DNA of 27,149 nucleotides, from IMG/VR virus record IMGVR_UViG_3300044625_002259, positions 1-27,149 of that record, one strand, 5' to 3'. The notes beneath the pieces are model-generated. The model had not been told where the DNA came from and ran no database searches. It saw nothing but the letters and a program-made list of their open reading frames with translations. Positions 2,882-26,797 of this stretch are shown here, piece after piece. A program made the translations under genes and the position numbers. The DNA comes from a virus. The number at the start of each line of letters is the position of its first letter. The first letter of the stretch is position 1.

Positions 2882-3366
2882 AAAATCAAAAAGTTCTACA
2901 CCCTGTCGAAAACCTTACGATCTTATACCGCGCTCGATACTATTGGTGTACGCCCGATCTTGCCGATCGGTATCAAGATCTTGCCGATCGGTATCAAGAC
3001 GTTTTTGATCGACTTGACGAAGTAGGCTTATTCCCATCAGAGTTTTTTGGTGAATTTATTTACGGATTTGTAGAGTCGCTAGAACGACAAATCGATCCTA
3101 ATTGTCAATCATCACGCATATTTTACGAGCCTTGCCCTGTAGTGAAAACTACTGCGATGGAAATCATCGTGGTATCGCAGAATATACCGCTTGATATTTT
3201 GGAGTTATTCCCAGACTTTTACAAGGGCGGTAGATTCCATGTCAACAAAGCCAAGCTACAGCAATCAGGCAGGGCTTATCACTCGCGACATGGTGAGTAT
3301 TTTTACATCAGCGCACCTGATAGCGCGATCGCATTGGGTGAGAGTAAGGAATTAGTGGAGGTGTGA
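2869..3366 (+). CDS. Hypothetical protein of a local three-member family, 165 aa
   Basis: The start is ambiguous. An ATG at 2851 directly abuts AAGGA, which is too close. The ATG at 2869 has GGAGAAGAG at usable spacing and is preferred. A perfect 21-bp tandem duplication (2956-2997) encodes two LADRYQD heptads (residues 31-44), probably a helix. The C terminus carries EYFYISAPDSAIALGESKEL (about 143-162), which resembles a segment in the proteins at 3369 and 9701 (hydrophobics, then xPxxDxxIxL). The function is unknown. The stop overlaps a GTG, and the next ATG follows two bases after the stop, so translation is probably coupled. Confidence 0.65.
   Translation: MQQIENQKVLHPVENLTILYRARYYWCTPDLADRYQDLADRYQDVFDRLDEVGLFPSEFFGEFIYGFVESLERQIDPNCQSSRIFYEPCPVVKTTAMEIIVVSQNIPLDILELFPDFYKGGRFHVNKAKLQQSGRAYHSRHGEYFYISAPDSAIALGESKELVEV
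2956..2997 (+). repeat. Perfect 21-bp tandem duplication inside a coding gene
   Basis: The unit GATCTTGCCGATCGGTATCA plus one A occurs twice without mismatch (2956-2976, 2977-2997). Because the unit is 21 bp, the frame is kept and seven residues are duplicated. The perfect identity points to a recent duplication. Confidence 0.95.
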
Positions 3367-3368
3367 TT

Positions 3369-3725
3369 ATGATTTACCAACTCAGTCGCGACTACGATCG
3401 CGCATGGCAATTGATACAGCAAGGCGAAAAGCTTGCGTGTTGGGTTGATTACGATTCACTTTTTAGAGATATTGCTCAGGCTTACAAATGGTTTGGAGCG
3501 ACAATGATTGTAGCGAGAGGGACTCAGTATGTTTATTTGTTTGAAGAGCAAAATAATTTTGATGATTTCGCCAAGCGTTGCACAGAGCTTAATGCTGAAT
3601 TTTATCTACCACTTGCTGACAATATGATCGTGATTTCTGAGGAGCGTTTAACAGAAATAACCTCAAAAGTCATTGACAGGAATTTTGAAAATTTAAAAAA
3701 ATATCGTAAGGGAGAAGCATCATGA
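3369..3725 (+). CDS. YQLSxDYD-family protein, 118 aa
   Basis: The ATG at 3369 is chosen because GGAGG (3357-3361) lies seven bases upstream; an in-frame GTG at 3363 is less likely. The N terminus, IYQLSRDYDRAWQLIQQGEK, matches the N terminus of the 249-aa protein at 9701 (YYQLSTDYDQADKLLSKG). Both continue with a conserved tryptophan (CWVDY / AWMVF). The segment FYLPLADNMIVISEERL (78-94) matches the same protein's LFLLPIPDPTIALQHSL. The two share a small domain of unknown function of about 95 residues. The gene ends in an ATGA overlap with the ASCH-like gene. Confidence 0.7.
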   Translation: MIYQLSRDYDRAWQLIQQGEKLACWVDYDSLFRDIAQAYKWFGATMIVARGTQYVYLFEEQNNFDDFAKRCTELNAEFYLPLADNMIVISEERLTEITSKVIDRNFENLKKYRKGEAS

Positions 3726-5696: not shown

Positions 5697-5742
5697 AAAA
5701 GTAAAGCACCTCTACCAAAATCGGTAGAGGTGCTTTACTTTT
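5697..5742. terminator. Second strong terminator, 20-bp perfect stem
   Basis: AAAA plus GTAAAGCACCTCTACC (5697-5716) pairs perfectly with GGTAGAGGTGCTTTAC plus TTTT (5723-5742) around the six-base loop AAAATC. It would end minus-strand transcription from the ribbon-helix-helix gene at 6511 through the remnant region. Only 27 bases separate it from the other terminator. Confidence 0.9.
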
Positions 5743-6283: not shown

Positions 6284-6511
6284 TTAATCATTTTCAAGTT
6301 TTAATTTAATTTCTTTAACTTCCTGTTCTAAATTGGAAAGGCGATCGCTTAAATCTCCCCATGCATCGGCAGGCATGATTAAGCAAAGCTCATTAACCAA
6401 TTTAGTAAAATCAATTTCTTTGTCACCGTTTGATCTTCTACGCTCTAACTCTTTTATGAGTGATGCGTAAATATCTGGATAGAAACGAATGCTGCGCGGT
6501 ATACCTTCCAT
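6284..6511 (-). CDS. Ribbon-helix-helix-like repressor, 75 aa
   Basis: The N-terminal part (IPRSIRFYPDIYASLIKELE, then RRRSNGDKEIDFTKLVNELC) fits a ribbon-helix-helix DNA-binding fold: a strand at about residues 4-10, a helix at about 12-24, a second helix at about 33-44. Residues 50-75 are a short coiled coil (LSDRLSNLEQEVKEIKLKLE), likely for oligomerisation. It is transcribed divergently from the HTH-like gene at 6591, and a perfect palindrome lies between them. This is the arrangement of a self-regulating switch repressor. The fold is inferred from pattern; the role comes from context. Confidence 0.7.
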   Translation of the reverse strand: MEGIPRSIRFYPDIYASLIKELERRRSNGDKEIDFTKLVNELCLIMPADAWGDLSDRLSNLEQEVKEIKLKLEND

Positions 6512-6545
6512 ATTTTGCCAATATAAATTTATTTTACTTTAGCAC

Positions 6546-6575
6546 TTGACAAGCTAATACTACGAGCTGTAGTAT
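6546..6575 (+). promoter_or_regulatory. Promoter with embedded palindromic operator
   Basis: TTGACA (6546-6551) is followed after 18 bases by TAGTAT (6570-6575). The palindrome ATACTAC-GAGCT-GTAGTAT (6557-6575) covers the spacer and -10, so a bound dimer would block polymerase. The likely binder is the ribbon-helix-helix protein encoded next door on the minus strand. Confidence 0.7.
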
Positions 6576-6590
6576 CCTATTTCATAAGCC

Positions 6591-6857
6591 ATGACGCACA
6601 CGATCGCTCACGCTATGACGCACACTGAAAGCCATATAGAGCTTAGCGTTAAGCAGATTATTGAAGCATACGGATTTGCAAGATCAACTTTTGAGGATTG
6701 GCGCGATGCTGTTTATTCAGGAGTTGGCGATCCGCCTTATTCACAAGATGAATTGAAAATCATTCTTGAGTATGCTGAAAAGAGGTCTGCTAAAGCGTTT
6801 GGAGCTTCTAAAAACAAAAACACTCGTAAAATATCAAGGATCTTAAGATCGTTATGA
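6591..6857 (+). CDS. Small helix-turn-helix-like protein, 88 aa
   Basis: Residues 18-45 (ELSVKQIIEAYGFARSTFED and WRDAVYSG) fit a helix-turn-helix of the kind found in small phage DNA-binding and excisionase-like proteins. The C terminus is basic (SKNKNTRKISRILRSL). There are two possible starts, 6591 and 6615, both within a repeated ATGACGCACAC. Neither has a Shine-Dalgarno sequence, and the first lies about 16 bases after the -10, so the mRNA may be nearly leaderless. It heads the long plus-strand operon and overlaps the next gene (ATGA). Confidence 0.65.
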   Translation: MTHTIAHAMTHTESHIELSVKQIIEAYGFARSTFEDWRDAVYSGVGDPPYSQDELKIILEYAEKRSAKAFGASKNKNTRKISRILRSL

Positions 6858-7324
6858 CAACCCAATACAAGACTAAAGAACAAGTAAAAGCAGAACAAGC
6901 ATCTCAAGATAAGCCATCTCAAGATGCAAATAATACCTCTATTCCCGTTATTGAGGGGTTAGAAGGTAGTCTTGAGATGATTTACACTCATCAGCGCAAC
7001 AAAGCCCGTTCAGTTGTGCAAAGAATTAAATTTGAAGCATGGCGAGATGAGTTTGACAGTGCATTAGAGGAGCCAAAGATCGATCCTGATTTTTTTACCA
7101 ATTTGTCAAAAAATTACAGTCCGATCGCTCCGAATCATATGCCTATGCTATTGTCCATTCCGTCTTCCCTTGCTGAGTCTAAACCCGATCAAGAAATCGA
7201 AACACTTACAGCCCGCTTTGATGAGTTGGTGGCATTAGAAAAAAGTTCTGAAGCAACTAACGAGCAGTTATCAGAATTGGATGAGGTAGAAGCAAAGCTC
7301 AAGGCTTTAGGAATTATTAAGTGA
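6854..7324 (+). CDS. Hypothetical soluble protein, 156 aa
   Basis: The function is not recognised. The N-terminal 40 residues are polar and probably disordered (YKTKEQVKAEQASQDKPSQD). A compact middle follows (EMIYTHQRNKARSVVQRIKF, then EAWRDEFDSAL). The C-terminal 45 residues are an acidic helical pair (ETLTARFDELVALEK, LSELDEVEAKLKALG). It overlaps the HTH-like gene (ATGA) and the next membrane peptide (GTGA). It is a likely cytoplasmic partner of the membrane/ATPase module downstream. Confidence 0.7.
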   Translation: MTTQYKTKEQVKAEQASQDKPSQDANNTSIPVIEGLEGSLEMIYTHQRNKARSVVQRIKFEAWRDEFDSALEEPKIDPDFFTNLSKNYSPIAPNHMPMLLSIPSSLAESKPDQEIETLTARFDELVALEKSSEATNEQLSELDEVEAKLKALGIIK

Positions 7325-7509
7325 AAACCTCTCGCGACCTATCCACGCTTTCATCGGTCGAGCTGATCGAAAGACTACGCGCAAAGGATCAGATAATTGC
7401 CTTGCTCGTTTTGTCGATAATCTCTACTTTGATTACTGGCGTATCAGTTGGATTTGCGATTGGGTTTTCTTCAGGCTATACAGCATCACAAATACAGAGG
7501 GCAAAATGA
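7321..7509 (+). CDS. Single-pass membrane protein, 62 aa
   Basis: It starts with GTG in a GTGA overlap with the previous stop. A polar, charged N-terminal 25 residues (SSVELIERLRAKDQ) is followed by one clear membrane helix (IIALLVLSIISTLITGVSVG) and a short glycine/serine-rich end (FAIGFSSGYTASQIQRAK). It is the first of several tiny membrane proteins in this operon. The length and shape are those of a filamentous-phage coat protein or a small membrane anchor, but no homology is recognised. Confidence 0.7.
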   Translation: MKTSRDLSTLSSVELIERLRAKDQIIALLVLSIISTLITGVSVGFAIGFSSGYTASQIQRAK

Positions 7510-7616
7510 CTAACTTCTTTGTAAATTTCTTTAGTTGGATTTTAGGTATTCCCCCTGATTGGGATACAGACTGGGAAGCAAGGCAAGATCGCGATGTTAA
7601 TGATTGGGATGATTAA
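7506..7616 (+). CDS. Micro-protein, 36 aa, hydrophobic start and acidic Trp-rich tail
   Basis: Its ATG overlaps the previous TGA (ATGA), and its TAA lies within the start region of the next gene. It begins MTNFFVNFFSWILGIPPDW and ends in an acidic, tryptophan-containing tail (DTDWEARQDRDVNDWDD). The hydrophobic first half could insert in the membrane. The overlap at both ends is the main support. The function is unknown. Confidence 0.6.
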   Translation: MTNFFVNFFSWILGIPPDWDTDWEARQDRDVNDWDD

Positions 7617-7785
7617 ACAGATTATTTCAATCGTTTTGACCGTAGCGAGTTCAGGATATATCGGCTTTGCTGCTTACATCCTGAACTCGCTACCAGAGCA
7701 AATAACAGAATCAAAAGCAGCTTTCAAAAAGAATCAATTATTGCGAGAGATCCGCGATGCCTACAACCAGACAGCACAACCTTAA
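7609..7785 (+). CDS. Single-pass membrane protein, 58 aa
   Basis: The ATG at 7609 overlaps the region of the preceding stop (ATGATTAA), which favours it over the upstream in-frame ATGs at 7594 and 7600. One membrane helix (IISIVLTVASSGYIGFAAYI, residues about 5-24) is followed by a charged helix (EQITESKAAFKKNQLLREIR). The C terminus overlaps the next gene by 29 bases in another frame. The function is unknown; it is part of the membrane series leading to the ATPase. Confidence 0.65.
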   Translation: MIKQIISIVLTVASSGYIGFAAYILNSLPEQITESKAAFKKNQLLREIRDAYNQTAQP

Positions 7786-8062
7786 CCATGTACGAGCGAT
7801 CAGCACTTCCTTTTTAGTTGCCATGAGTTCTTGTGTTTTGTCTGGTGTTTGGCTTGCTGGTAGTTGGGTTTACTCTACCTATCTACAGCCTAAAGTTGCA
7901 GTAGTAGAAGTCTCGGAATCTCGCAAAGAATTAGAAAACAGACATCGCAAATTACTGGATAAATCTGGATTTAAAAGCGATGTCAATCTTAGATCTGTTA
8001 CTGATGAAAATTTAAAAGCTGCTAACCGCAAACTGGAAAAGGCACTGAGAGCAGGGCAATGA
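7757..8062 (+). CDS. Membrane-anchored coiled-coil protein, 101 aa
   Basis: The N-terminal 15 residues are polar and basic. A membrane helix (STSFLVAMSSCVLSGVWLAG, about 17-36) follows, then a helical charged region (ESRKELENRHRKLLDKSG and ENLKAANRKLEKALRAGQ) that is probably cytoplasmic. GAGAGA lies shortly before the ATG. The gene overlaps the previous one by 29 bases and the ATPase by four (ATGA). Its position directly before the ATPase suggests it is a membrane partner or assembly factor, which is inference. Confidence 0.65.
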   Translation: MPTTRQHNLNHVRAISTSFLVAMSSCVLSGVWLAGSWVYSTYLQPKVAVVEVSESRKELENRHRKLLDKSGFKSDVNLRSVTDENLKAANRKLEKALRAGQ

Positions 8063-9318
8063 ACTTAACAAAAGATTTCCATGTATCACAAGTAGCGCTA
8101 GTACTTATTACACAGCGCTACTCTCACTATGGGAGTCTTTCAAGTTCCTTTATCGCTTTTCTCCTATTCCTGTCTATCCCATTTCAATCAAATGATTTTG
8201 CTAAAGGATTCATCTTTATTTCTCAATTAGCAGCTACAGCCAATTGTTTTAAGCTCTCTAGGCTTAATCAATCCTTGTCTAGTGAAAACCATCTAAGTGT
8301 CATTGATAGAGCTAATGAGGGCTTATCCAATCATTTAGCAGTATCTTACGCGTCGCCAAAACGTGATGTAGTTGTGATGGAATCAGCTAAGCCTTTAGCA
8401 CCATTAGTTAAGGACGATATTAAAAAAGCTCTTTCCAAGCCTCATATTATGCTTTTAGGGGAAACAGGATCGGGTAAATCCACTTTAGTTAAATATTTGG
8501 TTTCCCAATCATCCGCCCCTGCGATCGTATTGGATGTTCATGCTGCCCCTGATGATTGGCAAGGCATGACAGTAATTGGTGCAGGGCGCAACTATAAAGC
8601 TGTTGGTGATGAGGTTAATCGATTAGTCCAATTGATGAACGATCGGTACGAATTACGAGGTAAAGGTAAAACAACTTTTGAGCCATTACTCGTAATTCTT
8701 GATGAATTTCCCGCTTGTGTTGCCAATCTTGGTAAAAAGTTTACTGAATCAATAATGCTATTGGTTCGTGAAGCTAGAAAAGTAGGTATTAAATTAATTA
8801 TTCTTGCCCAAGGGTCTGAAGTAAAAACATTGGGAATTGAAGGGCAAGGAGCGATCAGAGAATGCTTTGCTATGGTTACACTTGGTAAATTTGCAATCAA
8901 TGCAGCTAAATCGCTTAAAGATGAGCAAATTATTGAGTTTATCAACAATGCTCAGTATCCTGCAATGTTGGACGATCTGCCTTGTGATTTGCCCAGTATT
9001 GGCAACTTAAAGCTTAATTTGTTGCCAATGCCAAGCGATTATAATCCTACGCAATTATCATTACAACCTGAATCGATTACTGATAACTCTGACTTTGATT
9101 TCCTGCAAGATAGAGAGCCAATATTTTTAAAAATTGTTGACTTTCTAGATGGTAGGGATTGGGAGCGCGATAATTATATTCGTGAGTCAATTACCGACCT
9201 GAAAAGGAATAAAACACCGATCGCTGAAGTCCAAGGCTATCTGCAATATTTGGAGGTGCAGGGCTATGTGGAAACTCGTAACGCTGGAAGAAACGGATTA
9301 GAAGCAAGGAAAATATGA
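8059..9318 (+). CDS. Membrane-anchored FtsK/HerA-type P-loop ATPase, 419 aa
   Basis: Residues about 31-61 hold two hydrophobic stretches (FIAFLLFLSIPF and FIFISQLAATA), an N-terminal membrane hairpin. The Walker A motif is GETGSGKST (134-142) and the Walker B is LLVILDEFP (210-218). A later conserved segment, KLIILAQGSEVKTLG (245-259), matches the arginine-finger-side region of coupling-protein and FtsK/HerA ATPases. The last 70 residues (FLKIVDFLDG... and YLQYLEVQGYVETR) look like a winged helix. Such enzymes pump DNA through membranes (FtsK, TraD) or package genomes (FtsK/HerA packaging ATPases). Here it is surrounded by tiny membrane proteins in one operon. No relaxase is visible, so conjugation is not shown. 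Confidence 0.85.
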   Translation: MNLTKDFHVSQVALVLITQRYSHYGSLSSSFIAFLLFLSIPFQSNDFAKGFIFISQLAATANCFKLSRLNQSLSSENHLSVIDRANEGLSNHLAVSYASPKRDVVVMESAKPLAPLVKDDIKKALSKPHIMLLGETGSGKSTLVKYLVSQSSAPAIVLDVHAAPDDWQGMTVIGAGRNYKAVGDEVNRLVQLMNDRYELRGKGKTTFEPLLVILDEFPACVANLGKKFTESIMLLVREARKVGIKLIILAQGSEVKTLGIEGQGAIRECFAMVTLGKFAINAAKSLKDEQIIEFINNAQYPAMLDDLPCDLPSIGNLKLNLLPMPSDYNPTQLSLQPESITDNSDFDFLQDREPIFLKIVDFLDGRDWERDNYIRESITDLKRNKTPIAEVQGYLQYLEVQGYVETRNAGRNGLEARKI

Positions 9319-9503
9319 CATTAAATCAAAATATTCCATCAAAACTAAAAGAAGAACTTACTGAGCTTTTGATGCAAGTTTGCAACCCTCACAAAGTGGT
9401 TATTTCACCCAAGTTTGATGACAACTACAAGTATTATTTATTACCCGATGGCACGTACAGACAAGATAAACGGACTTTTGGAAACAATGGAAAACTCAAC
9501 TAA
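9315..9503 (+). CDS. Hypothetical protein, 62 aa
   Basis: It overlaps the ATPase stop (ATGA). The N terminus is helical and amphipathic (SKLKEELTELLMQVCN); the rest is tyrosine-rich and polar (PKFDDNYKYYLLPDGTYRQD). No family is recognised. Its 3' end overlaps the start of the next membrane protein by 17 bases. It is probably a cytoplasmic accessory of the ATPase module. Confidence 0.6.
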   Translation: MTLNQNIPSKLKEELTELLMQVCNPHKVVISPKFDDNYKYYLLPDGTYRQDKRTFGNNGKLN

Positions 9504-9678
9504 TTTACTTCTAATTCCAATCTCTCTAGTCGTTATCGCTTTTGTTTGCCGATGGCATACGGCGTTTGTGGAATCGCAGATTGAGGGTCGCGATCGCAGA
9601 TTGAGAGAGGTTGAGATCGCGTGGTTGCGTCGCTGTTATGCGGTAAGCATGGTCGAGCGATTGGACAGGACTTGGTAA
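9487..9678 (+). CDS. Single-pass membrane protein, 63 aa
   Basis: The ATG at 9487 has GGA (9480-9482) upstream and begins MENSTNLLLIPISLVVIAFV, giving one membrane helix at about residues 6-21. This start is preferred to upstream ATGs because they would place polar residues ahead of the helix and lack a binding site. The C-terminal part is strongly basic and helical (EGRDRRLREVEIAWLRRCYA). The segment SQIEGRD recurs as VQIEGRD in the 249-aa neighbour. The function is unknown. Confidence 0.6.
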   Translation: MENSTNLLLIPISLVVIAFVCRWHTAFVESQIEGRDRRLREVEIAWLRRCYAVSMVERLDRTW

Positions 9679-9700
9679 AAACAAACTATGGATGAATTTT

Positions 9701-10450
9701 ATGAGTAAATATTACCAACTCAGTACGGATTACGATCAAGCTGACAAGCTTTTGAGTAAAGGGCTGTCATTACCAGCATGGATGGTTTTTAACCAAAATC
9801 CTTTAGTATTTAATACCGATCACAAGCAATTAAGAGTGTTTTCTTCTTCTGATGAAAAACTATTTATTGACGGGTTGAAGCCTCCTTCTGATTTTACTTA
9901 CGAAAAGTATCAAGTTCTATTTTTGCTGCCGATCCCCGATCCCACAATCGCGCTACAGCACAGCCTTAAATTGGCATTGAATGAGTGTGATGAGCTGAGG
10001 CAAAAAAATGAAAATCTCAAGATCATAATTGAGGAGCTGCAAAGCGATCTTGACACCGCCAAAAACGATCTGACTGTTGCTGATGCCGCGATTGAAGAAT
10101 TAAAACCTGTAACCCTTGATCCTTATATTGCTAACCAAAAATTAGAATCACAGATCAAAGAACAAGATCGCACTATCTCCAATCTCAAAGTCCAGATTGA
10201 GGGGAGAGATGCGGCCCTGAGAGGTAGCACGATTGAATATAAAAAGCTATATCAACAGATTCAAATCCTGCAAGAAAACCTCACACGCTCTAACAGCGAT
10301 CGCCTATCAGAGCTAACAAGCATTATGCGCCTAATCCAAGCCCTAGACAAAACACCGCAAGCTAATCTAGTAGGCGCTATACACCTAATTAAGCGAGTGA
10401 TTTACGATGCAATCTGTAAGCTCGATCCTAGCCAAGCTGTTGACCCTTAA
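9701..10450 (+). CDS. YQLSxDYD-domain protein with long coiled coil, 249 aa
   Basis: The ATG at 9701 has GGA eight bases upstream; an in-frame ATG at 9692 lacks a site. Residues 1-90 form the local YQLSxDYD domain (KYYQLSTDYDQADKLLSKG, ending LPIPDPTIALQHSL), shared with the 118-aa protein at 3369. Residues 90-195 are a coiled coil (NECDELRQKNENLKIIIEEL and LKVQIEGRDAALRG). A short helical end follows. The shared domain may be a recognition module, here fused to an oligomerisation arm. The 3' end overlaps that of the convergent minus-strand gene by 23 bases. Confidence 0.7.
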   Translation: MSKYYQLSTDYDQADKLLSKGLSLPAWMVFNQNPLVFNTDHKQLRVFSSSDEKLFIDGLKPPSDFTYEKYQVLFLLPIPDPTIALQHSLKLALNECDELRQKNENLKIIIEELQSDLDTAKNDLTVADAAIEELKPVTLDPYIANQKLESQIKEQDRTISNLKVQIEGRDAALRGSTIEYKKLYQQIQILQENLTRSNSDRLSELTSIMRLIQALDKTPQANLVGAIHLIKRVIYDAICKLDPSQAVDP

Positions 10451-11141
10451 TCACTTTCTCTAAATCCTTTATCTCAACCCGCAACTGAGCAATCGTACCT
10501 GTGTACTGTTCGATGATGCGGGTTTCTGTTAGCTGAATAATGCGATTGCTTTCCTCAATCCTGCGATCAATACTATTTAAGGCAATTCTCAATTCTGATG
10601 CATAAATTTCTAATATAGATGCTGTCTCTGTGGGAATGCTAGCGATCGCTTGTTCCAATGCTTGAATTGCCTCGGTGTTGTGCCTAGTGGCATTAATTAA
10701 ATCTTCGTGCGCTTTATTTACTGACTCGTTAGCCTTAGCCAATGACTGTAAGGATTGAGCGTTTGCCGATGAAGTTTGGATCGCATCAGATACCAAATGC
10801 AATAAGTCTTTTGTGATGGCTGTAGTGGTATCCATTCCCCTTGTAGCAAGTTGGGATACGGTATCGGACAGACCTTGATTAATATCAATCTCTGCTTCTA
10901 GCTCTTGCCCTTTGCGGTTTTCGGATTGCAGTATCCTACTAGTCTGCGATCCTGACCATTGTTTCCCAATCTCTTTCCAATCCACAAAGCCAGATAGCTT
11001 AGTCAAAATTACAGACAAAACAACTAGTCCAGTCCCTACAGCCCCTGTCCCTAAATTTATAGGTATTTCATTACTAGATCCGCTATTTGGCGTAGACTGC
11101 GATTGTGGCTGCGATGTAGCCACTGCGATATAAGATTTCAT
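10428..11141 (-). CDS. Membrane-anchored coiled-coil protein, 237 aa
   Basis: The ATG at 11141 is preferred. The frame extends to a TTG at 11189, but that TTG is the first part of the -35 box. After a low-complexity N terminus rich in S, Q and P there is a hydrophobic segment (GAVGTGLVVLSVILTKLSGF, about 34-53). The remaining 180 residues are a heptad-rich helix (SVNKAHEDLINATRHNTEAI, RIEESNRIIQLTETRIIEQY). This resembles a phage or host membrane-tethered coiled-coil protein, perhaps involved in lysis or envelope remodelling. No domain is recognised. Confidence 0.65.
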   Translation of the reverse strand: MKSYIAVATSQPQSQSTPNSGSSNEIPINLGTGAVGTGLVVLSVILTKLSGFVDWKEIGKQWSGSQTSRILQSENRKGQELEAEIDINQGLSDTVSQLATRGMDTTTAITKDLLHLVSDAIQTSSANAQSLQSLAKANESVNKAHEDLINATRHNTEAIQALEQAIASIPTETASILEIYASELRIALNSIDRRIEESNRIIQLTETRIIEQYTGTIAQLRVEIKDLEKVIKGQQLG

Positions 11142-11356: not shown

Positions 11357-11394
11357 AACAAAAAAGCGCTCTAAATTTAGAGCGCTTTTTTGTT
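11357..11394. terminator. Perfect palindromic terminator shared by convergent genes
   Basis: A 38-bp perfect palindrome centred between 11375 and 11376 (arm core AAAAAAGCGCTCTAAA, with its complement). A-runs and T-runs flank the GC core, so it works on both strands. It ends the plus-strand gene at 11355, and it overlaps the first base of the stop of the minus-strand gene at 11394. Confidence 0.95.
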
Positions 11395-17153: not shown

Positions 17154-17358
17154 ATCACGCACCGAAATAGATCGCGCCGCATATCTAAAGCGTACAGCAG
17201 ACAAACCACGCTACTACTGTACGCAATGCGATCGCCAACTCAGATCAGATTCACCTCTCACTATTTGCCGAGCCTGTTGGCTTAAAACGGATGATGGCAA
17301 GCTATACAAGCGACTGAAGAAAGCAGAGTCAAGAGCTAAGAATAAAGCTGAAAAGTGA
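17146..17358 (+). CDS. Small zinc-finger protein with two CxxC pairs, 70 aa
   Basis: The ATG overlaps the previous stop region (ATGCCTAA). The two pairs CTQC (25 and 28) and CRAC (41 and 44) lie in PRYYCTQCDRQLRSDSPLTI followed by CRACW, an ordinary treble-clef or zinc-ribbon spacing. Basic ends surround it (RTEIDRAAYLKRTADK; KRLKKAESRAKNKAEK), suitable for nucleic-acid binding. It is a second small zinc protein in the island. The function is unknown. Confidence 0.7.
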   Translation: MPKSRTEIDRAAYLKRTADKPRYYCTQCDRQLRSDSPLTICRACWLKTDDGKLYKRLKKAESRAKNKAEK

Positions 17359-17426
17359 TAAAATATTTGTGGCTTCGCGATGTTGACAGCATCCAAGCCC
17401 GTATAACCTACACAACAGGACTACAC

Positions 17427-18281
17427 ATGTCTAATCTTATCAAGAATTGGAATGATCGCGCCATCCGTATTCGCAGCGATCGCTATGTTTCATTAACCGA
17501 CATGGCTCAAGCCACGGGAAAGAGGGTCAATAATTGGCTTAGGCTTGATTCAACAAAATCTTATTTATCAGCACTTGAAAGCGTTACTCATTTAAGAGCA
17601 ACGGACTTACTGCAAGTGATTCAAGGCGGTGACTCGCAAAAACAAGGCACATGGGGACATCCTAAAGCCGCGATCCGTTTTGCTCAATGGTGTAGCGATG
17701 AGTTTGCGGTACAGGTAGACATTTGGACTGATGAACTTATGACGACTGGTAAAGTCGAGTTAGTCCCATCTCAACCCGCACTACCTCAAAACTATATTGA
17801 GGCTCTAGAGGCACATCTACAATCTGAGAAAGATAAAAAGGTACTTGCTGAAGCTAACCAGAAATTGATCGCCGCCAATCAATCCCTAGAAATCGAAGTA
17901 CAGACTTTAGAACCAAAAGCTGATCGTTATGATTTGATTTTGGCAACCGATGGATGGATGACGGGTGAAGAAATCTGCAAGCAATTGGCAATTCCTAAAT
18001 TCTCTAATCGCAAGCTCTATGATATTTTGCGTCAAGAGAAAGTATTGTTTAAGCGTCCCGATGGAACTAACTGCCCATATGCTGAATGGGTAAATGAGGG
18101 GCTTGCTAAGCTTCGTGATGGTCAATGCTTTGATGGTCGTATGAGATTTAGCCCTGCTTTCTCTTGGAAAGGATTGGATCGCATTCTTGACCTATTGCGT
18201 AAACATCAAGTTATTCCAAAGGATAAGCAATATAGGTTTAACTTTAATTCTGACAAAATTGTTGCAATGAAGAGGGCTTAG
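17427..18281 (+). CDS. KilA-N/KilAC phage antirepressor-type protein, 284 aa
   Basis: The ATG at 17427 is chosen because CAGGA lies six bases upstream; the longer frame to 17355 lacks a site. Residues about 10-105 form a KilA-N domain (YVSLTDMAQATGKRVNNWL, GTWGHPKAAIRFAQWCSDEF, VQVDIWTDELM). Residues 125-165 are a coiled-coil linker. Residues 165-265 form a KilAC-type domain (ILATDGWMTGEEICKQLAIP, KLYDILRQEKVLFKRPDG). Such proteins inactivate repressors or bind DNA directly in phages and large DNA viruses. It would be a natural switch for the palindromic promoters seen here. It starts a run of island genes, followed after two bases by the next ATG. Confidence 0.85.
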   Translation: MSNLIKNWNDRAIRIRSDRYVSLTDMAQATGKRVNNWLRLDSTKSYLSALESVTHLRATDLLQVIQGGDSQKQGTWGHPKAAIRFAQWCSDEFAVQVDIWTDELMTTGKVELVPSQPALPQNYIEALEAHLQSEKDKKVLAEANQKLIAANQSLEIEVQTLEPKADRYDLILATDGWMTGEEICKQLAIPKFSNRKLYDILRQEKVLFKRPDGTNCPYAEWVNEGLAKLRDGQCFDGRMRFSPAFSWKGLDRILDLLRKHQVIPKDKQYRFNFNSDKIVAMKRA

Positions 18282-19571: not shown

Positions 19572-20372
19572 TTGAATAAATTCACTAAACAGGACTTTGA
19601 TAGTGCGATCGCTGATCTTGAGGCGCAAATCACTGAGTTAAAAGCTAAGTATCCAGAGTTTGCTAAAGCAAAAGCTAGTTCTTACTCAAGTGGATTTAGA
19701 GGTGTGTATAGAACACTGTCTGGACGTTATTCAGGTAGGTATGGAGGATCTAAAAACAGAACTAATATCGGTGTTTATTCTACGCCTGAAGAAGCGGCTA
19801 GAGCTTACGATCTAGCTGTCACAAAATTTTACGGTAAAGGATGTGTGACTAACTTTGCTGTAGAGGGCATAGAAACTAAAGTGCTGTTTCCTGATTACCT
19901 AGAAATTAAGCATCGTGCCATAGATCCTTTGATCTCTAAGGACATATCTAAATCCTTCATGCAACATACTGCTGCCATTGGAAGTAAATTTAAAGGTGTT
20001 TCAAAAAGTACCTGTTGTAGTAAATATCAAGCCCAATATTGCTATAAGGGGAAATTGTTATGGTTAGGCAATCATAACACACCAGAATCCGCCGCTAGAG
20101 CCTACGACCTAAAAGCTATAGAATTACGCGGTGAAGAATGTACTACAAATTTTGCAGTAGAGGGAGTAAAAACCAATGTACTATTCCCTGATTACTCCGC
20201 CACAAAGCGTTATGAAGTCAATAAGTCATTAGAGTTGGTTAGAGAGCCTATACAGCTAACTATGGCAACCGATGATGAAACCTATGACAATATCGAAGAG
20301 TCAGTATTTGATCGCATGAGGGCTTTTGCTTCTGAAAATGGCATCGAAATTAAAACGATGCAAACTGCTTAA
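19572..20372 (+). CDS. Double AP2-domain DNA-binding protein, 266 aa
   Basis: The start is TTG (19572), with AAGGAG upstream at somewhat long spacing. A short N-terminal helix (residues 8-35) is followed by two AP2/ERF domains. The first (about 42-95) reads FRGVYRTLSGRYSGRYGGSK, IGVYSTPEEAARAYDLAVTK. The second (about 140-194) reads FKGVSKSTCCSKYQAQY, LGNHNTPESAARAYDLKAIE. Each is followed by NFAVEG(I/V)xTxVLFPDY, so the whole unit of about 98 residues is duplicated. Bacterial AP2 domains usually come with HNH nucleases (homing endonucleases); none is present. It is probably a transcription or recombination-directing factor. Confidence 0.85.
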   Translation: MNKFTKQDFDSAIADLEAQITELKAKYPEFAKAKASSYSSGFRGVYRTLSGRYSGRYGGSKNRTNIGVYSTPEEAARAYDLAVTKFYGKGCVTNFAVEGIETKVLFPDYLEIKHRAIDPLISKDISKSFMQHTAAIGSKFKGVSKSTCCSKYQAQYCYKGKLLWLGNHNTPESAARAYDLKAIELRGEECTTNFAVEGVKTNVLFPDYSATKRYEVNKSLELVREPIQLTMATDDETYDNIEESVFDRMRAFASENGIEIKTMQTA

Positions 20373-22101: not shown

Positions 22102-25100
22102 TTACATACTCAACGCCGCCGATCGTGCCATCTCCCTTTGAATCTGCAAAGCGATCTCTGTAGCGTTACCACTGCCTGTAGTTACATTTACGTTATAGGT
22201 TTTGTTACCGCCCGAATTGTTCAATACGTTCTTAGTCTGATTTGCAGGTAGGACATTAGAGCCTCTAGGCAATGTCACAAGCTCAGCACCTCGTTCTCCT
22301 ACCAATGCCATACCGCCGCGGAAGTTTATAACACCACTAGCAAAAGCAGGAACTTTAGAAGCGCCCGCACCCGTAGCGGCGCTAAGTGATGTTCCACCTT
22401 TAGTTACTGCCAACGCATCAATAATTTGCTGTGCAGACTTACCTAAAATTTGCTGTATCTCAATCGCAGACGCTTTATCTAGCGCCCTTTGTTGCTCTTT
22501 AAATACTCTCTCACGTTCGATTTTCTGATCCTCAAACGCCCGATCAAGCGCTAGCTCTTTCTCTTTTTGAGCTAACTTAATCGTCTCTAGCTCAGCATCA
22601 GCAGCTTTCCTGAGTGCTAAGTCCTCGTTGGTTTGCTGTAGTTTTAAAGCACGTTCTTCATCGGCTTGCTGCTCTTTAATTGCTGCAAGTTCACCTCTCT
22701 CGAAAGCTAATTTACTAGCCTGTAATTCAGCTTCGATTCTTTGCTTTTCAGGTTTGAGTACAGTGTTCTCAAAAGCCAACTTAGCAGCGTTTTGCTCAGC
22801 ATCAAAAGCCAACTTAGCAGCGTTTAATTCAGCTTCAAAAGCCTTGTCACTAGCTCTCTTGACCTCAGTGCGCTTTACATCTTCAGCTTTATCTATTTCA
22901 GCTTGTTTGGCTTTGTTGGCTTTCTCCAATTCGTCTAAGGCAAGCTGTACTTTTTTCTGCTCTTCACCCGTAGCGATCGCGGATACTTGAGCTATTTGCT
23001 TGGCTTGAGCAACCAATTGTTCTTGACTCTGTACCCCGCCCTGTCCTTGGGTAGCTGCTTGCGATCTAATGCGTTCTTCTTCTTCGATTTGCGCTGCAAT
23101 CCTAGCCCGATCTTCGGGCTTGACAGTAGCGATCGCGCCTTCATTACTTATTAATTGCTTAGCTTTTGACAAAGCCTCAGATGCTTGTTTATCACGTTGA
23201 GCGCGTTGCGCTGCAAATGCCTCATCGTCCTTACGTTGCTTATCGGCTCTCTGTTCTTTGAGTGCATTTTGCTTGTCATCAAAATCCTGCTTGAGTTTGT
23301 TTAGTTTCTCCTCGTTTGCACGTTTCTTGGCATCAAGAGCATCCTCAAGTTGTAGTTTTTTGGCATTCTGAGTGTCGTCAAATGCGCGTTGCTTATCTTG
23401 TAAAGCTAGGGTTTGCTTTTCCTTTAGTACCTCTGTTTCTAGCGCTTGCTTGCGATCTAGCTCACCTTTTGCGAGTGCATTTTTTTCTTCGATTGCTTTG
23501 ATAGCATCGGCATTTTCGCGATCGCGTTTGGCTTTGGTGTCTTCAAAGGATCGCTTGATTGATTTTTCTGCGTCTTGGTTTTGGGCTTCCCTGATTCTTT
23601 CAGCTTGCTTGCGTTGTTCATCGGTTACTTCAGCGATCGCTGATGCTTCCTTTGCTGCTGTACTATTTACCGCAGCAATTCGATCTTCTAAAAGTTTTTT
23701 GCGTTTGGAGAATATTGCAATCTCATTGTTTAGAAGTTTTTGTAAAGCAGGGTTATCAGAAGCGCCTTGAGCTTGCGCTTTCAAGGAATTAATAGCTAAA
23801 TCAATATTTTCAACCTGCTCCTTAGTTTCTTTATTGAATTTCGCTACTCCTTCGGCACCTAATCTATTTTTAGCCCCTGTAGCGTCAATGGCTACACCGT
23901 ATTTGTTCAATACGTTGAGTGATTCGTCGAGGGCTTTGGTGTATTCCTTTTGATTTTCAGCAAAAGCAATTACTTCTTTTTGTCGCCCCCTTTGCGCCCC
24001 AAAAATATCAAATGTTGCGCCTTGTCTTCCTAATCCGTCGTCAGTAGTTTGCTCAGGTGACGCTAGCTTACCGCGTAGCGCTTGTAATTCTGCTAATTTT
24101 TGCTTGTAATCCTCCAAACTTTTTGTCGATTCCGAAACATTAAAAGCTGATGATAATTGCTTACCTACTGCAATTAGTGGAATCGCAGCAACAACAATTA
24201 ACCCCAATGGCGTTGTCAGTGCATACGCCGCTACACTAGCAGCCGTGAGCGCACCTGTTAGCACTCCCGTACCTACAGCAAGTGCCCCTTGAGCGATCGC
24301 CGCTAATCCCGCTTTAGTGGTTAGCAGTGTAAAGGCATTACTAGCTAGGGTAGTCGCAAAGGTGAGGGCATTAGCACCAAAAGCTGCAATACCAGCCGCC
24401 CCACCAAATAACTTTAACCCCCCAACAAAAGCTGGAGCCGCCGCGCCGATCGCTGTAAGAGCCGCACCTAATGTAGCAATACCGCCAGCTAGTCCAATAA
24501 TCGCGCCTAAACCTACTTGAATTGGTGCAGGTAATTGGTTGAATACGTCAACAGCCGCGCCTACAACCGCTATTAATGGCGCAAATGCTGTTTGTGTACC
24601 ACGTCCTAAATTCACTAAAGCTTCATTGATTTTATTGATAGCTGCTGTAATTTGACCCTGAGCAGACTTGGCAACAATATCAAAGCCAGCTTGTGCTTTA
24701 CCTGACGCATTACCGATGGCTGCTAGATTCTCGTTGAACTTGCCTAGATCGCCACTAATCAAAGGCAATACAGCAGCTAGTCCGTCAACATCGGTAAAGA
24801 TCTTGGATAGCTGCTCTGAAGATGTAGCGCCGCTTGCTGACAGTCGTTTTAATACACCTGATAGCCCCTCAGTTTTTAGGATTGCAGCGCTGTTTGCAAT
24901 GCCATATTTCTCTAGTTCTTTTGCTGCTGCTGCTGTAGGTTTAAGCAATGTAACGATCGCCTGTCTTACTCCACTAACAGCACTTTCTGTTTTAATACCA
25001 GTAGCTGTAGTTGTTGCGATCGCCGCCGATACTTCGTCAAAACTTACACCCGCTGCTTTTGCTATTGGAGCGATTTTTCCTAGTTGCCCCGCAAATTGTC

Positions 25101-26055
25101 CGATCGTGGTTTTACCTTTATCTTGCACAACTGCAAATTTATCGACAATTAAAGCCGCATCGTTAGCAGCCAATCCATAGGCATTAAGCACTGATGTAGT
25201 TGCGTCAGCTACCGTAGCAGTATCGGTAAAACCAGCTTTAGCACCTAATACCGATACTCTCGTAATCTCTGAAGCGTCAGCTACATTACTGAATCCACTA
25301 GATAAAATCTCATATTGTGCGCCTAAAATCTCAGCGCTAGTTACCTGATTTTTTAGCTCACCTGATAGTTTGATCGCTACACCTGCAAAAGCGTCCGACT
25401 CGTTGGATAAAGTAGCAATCTTTGTTTTAGCTGTATCAAACCCCAAAAAAGCTTGATTAGCAGCGCTAGAAACTTGATTAAAAGTAGTTCCAATCCGTTC
25501 TAATGTCTGCGATGTATTTTGTAATTGCTCAGCTAAATCTCGCGCTTTCTCAGTAGTAGCGCCAATGAACTGATTAAAAGTTACAGGACTCGCATCGTCA
25601 AAACCTTTCTTGATTTTGTCGAGATTAAGTTTATTGATTTCACTCGCTAGAGCTTTAGCGTTAGCAATATCAGCAGGATTAATCAGCTTTGCATCTATAG
25701 CTGCTAATTGCTGTTTGTATCGTAGTAATTCTTGTGCAACTCGCGCCGCCTCTTTGTCAGCGCCATCTGATACCCGTACAGCGCTAGCTGCTTTTTGCCT
25801 CTCTAGTTGCGAAATAAAAGCAGCCGATCTAGTTGCATCATTTGCGCCGCTTTGTGCCTTTTTCTTCTCTAAAGCGTCTATTTCTAGCTGTAGTTTTTTT
25901 AGTGCAGCGACAGCTATGTTAGAAGCATCCGCGCCGCCCAAATTTAAGACGGGTGCTTTGATATTACCGATCGCAGATTGCAAAGTTTTGATGTCACTGA
26001 TCGCCTTGTCGATGCCATCAAAACTTACTCTAATTGCATAATTTTCATCAGCCAT
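22102..26055 (-). CDS. Phage tail tape-measure protein, 1317 aa
   Basis: The ATG at 26055 (MADENYAI) is chosen because GAGG lies nine bases upstream; a TTG 15 bases earlier is not needed. Residues about 205-430 match the TP901-type core (SAEILGAQYEILSSGFSNVA, AGFTDTATVADATTSVLNAY, VSGVRQAIVTLLKPTAAAA). Residues about 515-635 are a long hydrophobic, alanine/glycine-rich region, as in other tape measures. Residues about 830-1225 are a long charged coiled coil. Near the C terminus is the usual MALVGERGAELVTLPRGS. The protein sets tail length and is injected during infection. It is coupled to the preceding gene (TGA-T-ATG). Confidence 0.95.
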   Translation of the reverse strand: MADENYAIRVSFDGIDKAISDIKTLQSAIGNIKAPVLNLGGADASNIAVAALKKLQLEIDALEKKKAQSGANDATRSAAFISQLERQKAASAVRVSDGADKEAARVAQELLRYKQQLAAIDAKLINPADIANAKALASEINKLNLDKIKKGFDDASPVTFNQFIGATTEKARDLAEQLQNTSQTLERIGTTFNQVSSAANQAFLGFDTAKTKIATLSNESDAFAGVAIKLSGELKNQVTSAEILGAQYEILSSGFSNVADASEITRVSVLGAKAGFTDTATVADATTSVLNAYGLAANDAALIVDKFAVVQDKGKTTIGQFAGQLGKIAPIAKAAGVSFDEVSAAIATTTATGIKTESAVSGVRQAIVTLLKPTAAAAKELEKYGIANSAAILKTEGLSGVLKRLSASGATSSEQLSKIFTDVDGLAAVLPLISGDLGKFNENLAAIGNASGKAQAGFDIVAKSAQGQITAAINKINEALVNLGRGTQTAFAPLIAVVGAAVDVFNQLPAPIQVGLGAIIGLAGGIATLGAALTAIGAAAPAFVGGLKLFGGAAGIAAFGANALTFATTLASNAFTLLTTKAGLAAIAQGALAVGTGVLTGALTAASVAAYALTTPLGLIVVAAIPLIAVGKQLSSAFNVSESTKSLEDYKQKLAELQALRGKLASPEQTTDDGLGRQGATFDIFGAQRGRQKEVIAFAENQKEYTKALDESLNVLNKYGVAIDATGAKNRLGAEGVAKFNKETKEQVENIDLAINSLKAQAQGASDNPALQKLLNNEIAIFSKRKKLLEDRIAAVNSTAAKEASAIAEVTDEQRKQAERIREAQNQDAEKSIKRSFEDTKAKRDRENADAIKAIEEKNALAKGELDRKQALETEVLKEKQTLALQDKQRAFDDTQNAKKLQLEDALDAKKRANEEKLNKLKQDFDDKQNALKEQRADKQRKDDEAFAAQRAQRDKQASEALSKAKQLISNEGAIATVKPEDRARIAAQIEEEERIRSQAATQGQGGVQSQEQLVAQAKQIAQVSAIATGEEQKKVQLALDELEKANKAKQAEIDKAEDVKRTEVKRASDKAFEAELNAAKLAFDAEQNAAKLAFENTVLKPEKQRIEAELQASKLAFERGELAAIKEQQADEERALKLQQTNEDLALRKAADAELETIKLAQKEKELALDRAFEDQKIERERVFKEQQRALDKASAIEIQQILGKSAQQIIDALAVTKGGTSLSAATGAGASKVPAFASGVINFRGGMALVGERGAELVTLPRGSNVLPANQTKNVLNNSGGNKTYNVNVTTGSGNATEIALQIQREMARSAALSM

Positions 26056-26056
26056 A

Positions 26057-26797
26057 TCAATCACCCTCAATCAAACTTCTTAAAAAAGTGTCGAAATAAT
26101 TAACCAAAGAAACGGTTAAAGCTTCTTCTGCCCCTAGAGTTGGGGTCAAATACTTATGCCTTTTTTGCAACCATCTCAAAGCGATCGCTACATTTAGATC
26201 GTCTGTATCGCTGGAGGGTAGCCAGTGCTTAGCAACTAAGGCAAGGTGATTGGGGATGTCTTTGCGCTTTAGATCAAGGCTTTCTAAAATCTCCCTTCCA
26301 TCAAGAGGGTTATGAATAATTACTCGTCCGTTCTCTTCTTGTTCTATGCGTGGATTACACCAGCAAGAGCCGTCATTATTTTCATCGTGTTCTCTCAAGT
26401 CATCAATAGGGATAACATGGACTGATTCGCCTTTATACTCTAAAGATTTACGCCTTAGTTTTACTATTTCAGGTGTAAAACCAACATCTTTTAAAGTTGA
26501 CTCTATTAAAATTTCTACAATTTGCAAATCAACGCTTAATCCTTGATTTTGATCTAAAAAAGTATTCCGATTAGTATCAATCAAAAAACGAGACGGGGCT
26601 GCAATTATTAAATAGTTAGTAGAGTCACTCAATGGTTCATCGTATTGTTTAGTAATTGGCGCGATCGTTAAATCACTATTACCAATATTTTTTTCAATAC
26701 TCCAAAAACAACTAATTGTTAATGGATTATTGAGCCCAAAAATGTCGATAAATTCATCAGCAATATGATGCGATAAGACTGCATGGATGTTTTTCAT
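26057..26797 (-). CDS. Tail-region protein with embedded DLREH-CWC-DGRE domain, 246 aa
   Basis: It lies directly before the tape measure, where tail assembly chaperones are usually encoded. Residues about 126-170 contain VHVIPIDDLREHDENNDG, CWCNPRIEQEENGRVIIHNP and LDGREI. These form a small conserved module (DLREH...CxC.P...G..IHN..DGRE) known from many stand-alone phage proteins of unknown function, here inside a larger protein. Flanking parts are mixed (ADEFIDIFGLNNPLTISCFW; PNHLALVAKHWLPSSDTDDL). The C-terminal half may be the real chaperone-like part. The role is inferred from position. Confidence 0.7.
   Translation of the reverse strand: MKNIHAVLSHHIADEFIDIFGLNNPLTISCFWSIEKNIGNSDLTIAPITKQYDEPLSDSTNYLIIAAPSRFLIDTNRNTFLDQNQGLSVDLQIVEILIESTLKDVGFTPEIVKLRRKSLEYKGESVHVIPIDDLREHDENNDGSCWCNPRIEQEENGRVIIHNPLDGREILESLDLKRKDIPNHLALVAKHWLPSSDTDDLNVAIALRWLQKRHKYLTPTLGAEEALTVSLVNYFDTFLRSLIEGD

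Follow-up and report, generated by a model that had tools for sequence, protein, structure and literature searches.

An exchangeable-motor FtsK/HerA-type ATPase and its small membrane proteins in a tailed phage and on cyanobacterial plasmids

The operon and its ATPase

The stretch analysed here, positions 1 to 27,149 of IMG/VR virus record IMGVR_UViG_3300044625_002259 (27,149 bases; hereafter the window), is linear and probably a fragment of a larger genome. Between positions 6591 and 10450 it carries an operon of ten genes encoding proteins of 88, 156, 62, 36, 58, 101, 419, 62, 63 and 252 amino acids (aa), the 419-aa product being a membrane-anchored ATPase. Most joints in the operon are overlaps of 4 bases or more, and the run is flanked by a divergent 75-aa gene on the left and a convergent 237-aa gene on the right. 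An earlier note, made from the sequence alone, had described a coupled run of nine genes at 6854–10450. That run is present; its start now moves upstream to the 88-aa gene at 6591–6857, and the divergent 75-aa gene is added. The features are as follows, with transmembrane (TM) segments called by a Kyte-Doolittle (KD) 19-residue scan.

6284–6511, minus strand: 75-aa ribbon-helix-helix (RHH)-like protein, strand-helix-helix then coiled coil; 40–100% in all related contigs
6591–6857, plus strand: 88-aa probable helix-turn-helix (HTH) DNA binder, first operon gene; Pfam HTH_23 E 0.004, below cut-off; overlaps the 156-aa gene; 63–100% conserved in relatives
6854–7324, plus strand: 156-aa soluble protein; no family match
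7321–7509, plus strand: 62-aa single-TM protein; KD 1.66
7506–7616, plus strand: 36-aa protein, amphipathic N-terminus and acidic Trp-rich tail; 89–100% identical in five of six relatives
7609–7785, plus strand: 58-aa single-TM protein; KD 1.68; 72–100% conserved
7757–8062, plus strand: 101-aa protein, one TM segment and a C-terminal soluble domain (RKELENRH..TDENLKAANRKLEKALRAG)
8059–9318, plus strand: 419-aa membrane-anchored P-loop DNA-translocase-like ATPase, core type A; DUF87/HerA
9315–9503, plus strand: 62-aa soluble protein; 92–100% conserved in six relatives; no family match
9487–9678, plus strand: 63-aa single-TM protein; KD 1.66; 81–100% conserved
9692–10450, plus strand: 252-aa coiled-coil protein, last gene of the run; only coiled-coil matches; variable in relatives
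10428–11141, minus strand: 237-aa TM and coiled-coil protein; 49–100% in relatives; conserved right border of the variable locus, contig G427 included
22102–26070: tape-measure protein; PHROG E 3.8e-41

By profile and by fold, the motor of the window ATPase matches the HerA/FtsK superfamily of ring translocases. Its Pfam match to DUF87/HerA (2.3e-6) is above cut-off, and an AlphaFold2 model of moderate confidence (shallow six-sequence alignment, mean pLDDT 66, motor mostly 72–92) shows N-terminal helices at 9–39 and 45–96, a RecA-like motor and a winged-helix-like end at 354–418. The two N-terminal helices are predicted to be membrane helices, and the C-terminal end is predicted to be a winged helix with putative DNA binding; modelled alone, this end keeps its H-E-H-H-E-E topology (pLDDT 71.5). 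Profile and model thus bear out the earlier description of a P-loop ATPase with N-terminal membrane segments and a winged-helix-like end. Among solved structures, the best Foldseek matches to the ATPase were TcpA of pCW3 (6o1w, 8.6e-7) and FtsK (6t8g, 8.6e-6), with EccC also matched. A PHROG terminase match (6.6e-9) covers the P-loop motor region only. PADLOC matches for HerA-associated defence were also confined to the P-loop region, with no SIR2, DUF4297 or similar partner. We therefore rejected a known anti-phage defence module, the matches being generic to that region and an effector partner being absent. Relatives of the element divide the ATPase into three segments:

8059–8367, plus strand: membrane anchor (aa 1–103, two helices); kept across core swaps
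8368–9120, plus strand: motor core (aa 104–354); sister contigs have unrelated cores here
9121–9315, plus strand: winged-helix end, or tip (about aa 354–419); kept across core swaps

The earlier note had allowed that the small frames might not be conserved. We found the operon genes in synteny in six related IMG/VR contigs, mostly at 80–100% identity, and counterparts at 29–88% identity in a more distant phage relative, L117; tblastn did not detect the 36-aa frame in contig L008. Between the window and L117, ratios of nonsynonymous to synonymous substitution (dN/dS), which are approximate where reading frames overlap, were 0.45 for the 62-aa TM protein, 0.43 for the 36-aa protein, 0.31 for the 58-aa protein, 0.22 for both the 101- and 63-aa proteins, and 0.14 for the 156-aa protein. 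Since these values run from 0.14 to 0.45, they indicate that the small frames are real genes under purifying selection. Of the five small proteins that had been credited with one hydrophobic segment, those of 62, 58, 101 and 63 aa have one each (KD 1.66–1.68), and the 36-aa protein has no clear TM segment by the same scan (KD 0.67).

The element itself is identified as a tailed phage by its tape-measure gene and by the DnaB and terminase large-subunit genes of related contigs (up to 80 kb). The terminase large subunit of the same phage family matches Terminase_6N at 2.9e-4, just below cut-off, and the family also encodes a portal-like protein. The HIP1 site GCGATCGC occurs 28 times in the window, or 1.03 per kb against the ~0.006 per kb expected from composition, an excess that makes a cyanobacterial host likely. 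The phage-plasmid markers CyRepA1, ParA and integrase were not found, although the DUF3854 search had no positive control; AAA_31 (ParA) was absent from seven phage records in a search whose control responded, with the proviso that viral records are fragmentary and the absence of a gene cannot be shown from them. At 17355–18281 lies a gene for an anti-repressor or transcriptional-regulator-like protein (PHROG 129 and 63), which suggests a temperate-type control circuit, though no integrase turned up in the relatives.

Motor exchange at one phage locus

Within one phage family, three types of motor occupy this locus: core A (HerA-like) in the window, core B in contigs L006–L008 and core C, a true FtsK motor, in L117. 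Across the family locus the cores are 26–30% identical, with anchors at 61–94% and tips at 67–89%. Compared with the window, L006, L007 and L008 retain the anchor (aa 1–103) at 67–83% and the last 66 residues at 77%, with the core at 30%; the corresponding values for L117 are 94% for the anchor, 88% for the tip and 26% for the core. Core C matches the Pfam FtsK family at 1.8e-35 and 2.4e-29 (the latter in L117), and matches FtsK 2iuu at 8.9e-38 and TcpA 6o1x at 1.8e-22. Core B alone gave no profile match. L117 was found through the 101-aa protein; the plasmid core-C query itself matched no viral contig.

The same three cores are found on Pseudanabaena plasmids and contigs, and pairwise comparison there indicates that anchor, core and tip recombine independently. 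The P. galeata and ABRG53g plasmids have a common anchor (79%) but not a common core (26%), whereas P. galeata and L087 have a common core (91%) but not a common anchor (37%). Contigs L087 (core A) and L093 (core C) are alike in the tip (82%) and not in the core (28%), and L031 and L087 are alike in anchor (94%) and core (82%) but not in the tip (38%). Tips are of two types, with the sequences EVQGYLQYLE.. and EIRxYFQWLA.. The three-motor swap at a single phage locus amounts to a natural domain-exchange experiment, in which the anchor and tip must stay and the engine is replaceable. L008 offers another exchange spot: its 156-aa gene is only 43–46% identical while the preceding gene is 99% identical.

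Replacement can also extend over the whole locus. In G427, a large contig of the family reached through the portal-like gene, the interval between the RHH-like and right-border genes is replaced (L165, G427:C1:53014-58282) by a module with genes for a different ATPase (DUF87 2.4e-4), for membrane proteins, for an M23+SLT peptidoglycan hydrolase anchored in the membrane and for a protein with an SNase domain. The portal-like gene is present in five contigs of 50 kb or more; the anchor-type ATPase is found in four of them and the G427 replacement in the fifth.

Homologous modules on plasmids of filamentous cyanobacteria

Homologues of the ATPase occur on small plasmids, including pPg_01 of P. 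galeata (37% identity over 96%, 4e-69) and pDU1 of Nostoc (2e-36; this plasmid holds the module in part only). Others are found on ABRG53g, on Tolypothrix, Calothrix, Annamia, Allocoleopsis and Moorena plasmids, and on ten Planktothrix plasmids. In two Pseudanabaena contigs of 8.6 and 11.0 kb the ATPase gene is split across the contig ends, as expected of small circular plasmids. Most plasmid homologues are annotated 'hypothetical protein' and one 'type IV secretory system conjugative DNA transfer family protein', so the ATPase has not turned out to be an established conjugation or partition gene set among ordinary neighbours. The neighbourhood survey that the earlier note had proposed across cyanobacteria thus finds homologous modules on plasmids of filamentous genera. 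Nor is the layout confined to phages, because cyanobacterial plasmids have it too.

Gene order is alike in Pseudanabaena, Planktothrix, Annamia and the Planktothrix phage PaV-LD: a divergent small DNA-binding gene, then small genes for DNA-binding or soluble proteins, membrane proteins and the membrane ATPase. The 101-aa protein is homologous to proteins of 98–108 aa whose genes lie immediately upstream of those for the plasmid ATPases (0 of 2000 shuffles; phmmer on a small set, 5e-6 to 3e-4), and these homologues track the anchor (rho 0.79) more closely than they track the core (rho 0.54), as adjacency also predicts. A search with the 101-aa protein of 38 Pseudanabaena-family genomes was empty, the sequence being too divergent. 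Plasmid contig L088 encodes a 56-aa TM protein that the 62-aa TM protein resembles, with a score reached by none of 2000 TM-preserving shuffles. We also considered the 36-aa protein as a homologue of a plasmid family of acidic 50–75 aa proteins, and set this aside as a similarity that is suggestive only (p 0.004–0.4). At the place of the divergent gene, Pfam detects RHH proteins in several plasmid modules, firmly in pDU1 (RHH_5 2.6e-9) and more weakly in P. galeata (2.6e-4), ABRG53g (0.002) and Annamia p01 (Antitox_RHH 5.5e-4). The 75-aa window protein has no Pfam RHH match, and its assignment follows from position and pattern. The PaV-LD counterpart of the 88-aa protein matches HTH_3 at 1.8e-7, and FtsK genes of the PaV-LD type are present in 16 viral contigs.

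We compared 24 plasmids carrying core A, B or pDU1-type ATPases, after removal of duplicates, with 213 control plasmids returned by a search with the replication protein CyRepA1; as plasmid records are not independent, the resulting host and relaxase statistics are indications. All 24 ATPase plasmids come from filamentous genera (growth form outside Annamia being taken as general knowledge), compared with at least 53 of 213 controls from unicellular genera (Fisher p 0.003); the same comparison by genus gives a weak result (p 0.09). MOB-suite identified a relaxase in none of the 24 ATPase plasmids and in 65 of the 213 controls (Fisher 4e-4). Annamia dubia reportedly stands alone in the Chroococcales as a true filament former (PMC10751749).

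Several further features were noted around these modules. Just downstream of the ATPase gene in L088, positions 6330–6570 hold about twenty tandem copies of the 11-base repeat GTCTAYGGMRA, which are centromere- or clt-like. GTACxGTA-type repeats with ~11-base phasing lie near the plasmid ATPase at L086 6312–6772, where they overlap a gene for a zinc-ribbon-ended (InsA-type) protein. The iteron TGTTTWACA, common to several plasmids, was discounted, as it adjoins an RHH gene and a serine resolvase gene and not the ATPase. On a Tolypothrix PCC 7712 plasmid (L169 4700–4894), an RHH gene annotated ParG lies upstream of a gene for a large ATP-binding protein, and versions of the layout with a large ATPase (about 600 aa) occur on plasmids of Nostoc and Tolypothrix, some of which carry MOBP relaxases. 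Elsewhere in the window, perfect inverted repeats at 5697–5742 (20 bases per arm) and 11357–11394 (19 bases per arm) flank the module and are terminator-like. The N-termini of the 252-aa protein and of a 120-aa protein (3363–3725) are alike, at 50% over 24 aa, as a duplicated small domain. An HNH endonuclease encoded at 19572–20372 (PHROG 99) contains two repeated domains and is probably of the homing type.

Candidate functions and known counterparts

DNA export stays the best reading of the operon. We tentatively propose, at somewhat less than an even chance, that it encodes a replicon-borne double-stranded DNA (dsDNA) translocase, similar to the TraB/Spd systems of Streptomyces, that moves its replicon between the cells of a filament. 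The two N-terminal helices would anchor the ATPase in the inner membrane, where it would assemble with the small single-TM proteins, and its motor would form a hexamer. Loading would take place at sites on the element's own replicon, through the C-terminal winged helix, with the divergent RHH-like protein and the HTH protein controlling the system, and the plasmid or phage genome would be pumped as dsDNA across the septum into the next cell. That three different motors serve in one frame suggests a job that FtsK can do, namely dsDNA movement. The anchor travels with the small membrane genes, which suggests that the two form one membrane unit, and retention of the winged helix suggests recognition of the element's own replicon. 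Also favouring cell-to-cell spread are the anchor-motor-winged helix order, as in FtsK and TraB; the small membrane genes directly upstream of the ATPase in phages and plasmids alike; the homologous modules on small circular plasmids without a MOB-suite relaxase, all from filamentous genera; and the hydrolase and SNase genes that G427 adds at the same locus.

Several observations pull the other way. Foldseek returned nothing significant for the winged-helix model (best E 0.17), so that a link to the FtsK gamma or TraB domain is hypothetical. No clt/TRS-like cluster of repeated 8- or 9-mers lies near the ATPase in the window, for which reason we do not file the operon as a TraB member; repeat arrays near the ATPase exist in some plasmids (L086, L088). 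By hydropathy scan the pDU1 and Tolypothrix modules are without clear TM helpers. The plasmid set is phylogenetically uneven, with Planktothrix supplying 10 of 24, and filamentous strains may simply be richer in plasmids. The G427 hydrolase may be a lysis gene. Finally, with virions at its disposal, a phage of either lytic or temperate habit would not need such spread. The fuller version, in which a tailed cyanophage sends its genome along the filament without virions by a plasmid-type, TraB/Spd-like septal pump, swapping engines while keeping the anchor and the DNA-reading tip and possibly escaping motor inhibition, is in our judgement rather unlikely.

We prefer spread along filaments to four other explanations. 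The most serious is a segregation or stability machine, which we regard as plausible if less probable: the ATPase, like FtsK/SpoIIIE, would act within one cell lineage and clear or anchor its replicon at the division septum, the RHH protein would be its centromere-binding partner, and no transfer between cells would take place. The RHH gene adjoins the module in plasmids, the Tolypothrix PCC 7712 copy is annotated 'plasmid partition protein ParG', the L088 array is centromere-like, and recombinases are found on several of the plasmids. Yet several carriers already have ParA (P. galeata, AAA_31 6e-30; Annamia p01; a ParA-like protein in L095), and several membrane helpers exceed the usual needs of a partition system. 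The phage relatives have neither ParA nor integrase, which makes a long-lived plasmid state hypothetical for them. A VirD4/TcpA-like coupling protein, feeding the replicon to a conjugation apparatus of the host or another plasmid, would fit the best fold match (TcpA is the coupling protein of pCW3), the one conjugative-transfer annotation and the relatives of the G427-type ATPase, whose plasmids are mobilizable in 11 of 20 cases; we nevertheless consider it improbable given that, among plasmids, those with core A, B or pDU1-type ATPases lack a MOB-suite relaxase in all 24 cases.

Two explanations start from the virus. An ATPase recruited from plasmids for a phage-specific membrane function, such as takeover, superinfection exclusion or genome entry, could account for the hypervariability of the locus within one phage family, a pattern to be expected of something host- or competitor-facing. 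The same modules with the same swaps are nonetheless found on plasmids that make no virions, and no known defence module matched beyond generic P-loop regions, so that we give this function only a small chance. The earlier note had named export, packaging or membrane occlusion as possible roles of a machine inside a tailed phage; the membrane motor with tiny membrane proteins and the tailed phage have stood, and packaging has not. Membrane-containing and filamentous viruses do have FtsK/HerA-type packaging ATPases, and some are among the weak BFVD fold matches. But a DNA packaging or extrusion engine of such a virus is very improbable here, where the same family encodes tape-measure, portal-like and terminase large-subunit proteins and the ATPase homologues sit on plasmids. 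We rejected the ATPase as packaging motor because relatives encode a separate terminase large subunit.

If spread along filaments is correct, filamentous cyanobacteria gain a counterpart of the single-motor dsDNA transfer of Streptomyces, an explanation is at hand for a conserved gene block without a name that many cyanobacterial plasmids carry, the vector replicon pDU1 included, and a tailed phage would possess a DNA-moving machine other than its virion. The exchange of engines between a retained anchor and tip suggests a DNA-transfer or DNA-sorting machine without earlier description; our search of open-access papers found no account of a cyanobacterial module of this kind.

Known systems place the operon most readily beside Streptomyces TraB, a single FtsK-type protein that moves dsDNA with the help of three to six spd genes, and to which the membrane protein SpdB2 binds (PMC4170104). 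Like the TraB/Spd systems of pSVH1 and pIJ101, the operon combines a membrane FtsK-type motor, a (here predicted) C-terminal DNA-binding end, small plasmids, a filamentous multicellular host and several small helper genes without known family beside the motor, a likeness drawn from layout. Unlike them, it has no clt repeats in the window, often a HerA-like core, RHH and HTH regulators, and Gram-negative hosts, with tailed phages among its carriers. TcpA of Clostridium perfringens pCW3 (PDB 6o1w) resembles the window ATPase by fold (8.6e-7) and core C by sequence (1.8e-22), but it serves a type IV secretion system-like apparatus (PMC5365140), and none is known beside the operon ATPase. TdtA of Thermus thermophilus is also a membrane-binding HerA/FtsK-class ATPase of a mobile, DNA-donating element (PMC5365140); in contrast to the operon ATPase, it has no detected DNA-binding domain and adjoins NurA and a type IIG restriction enzyme. 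With FtsK/SpoIIIE the ATPase has the anchor-motor-winged helix order in common, core C being a member by sequence, but it is about half as long, is carried on mobile elements beside small membrane partner genes, and exchanges its segments independently. The ORF127 FtsK/SpoIIIE region of PaV-LD presents the same order, with an RHH-like gene on the minus strand, HTH and soluble proteins, two TM proteins and a membrane ATPase, although that ATPase is only ~26% identical over 39% and the PaV-LD record assigns it no function.

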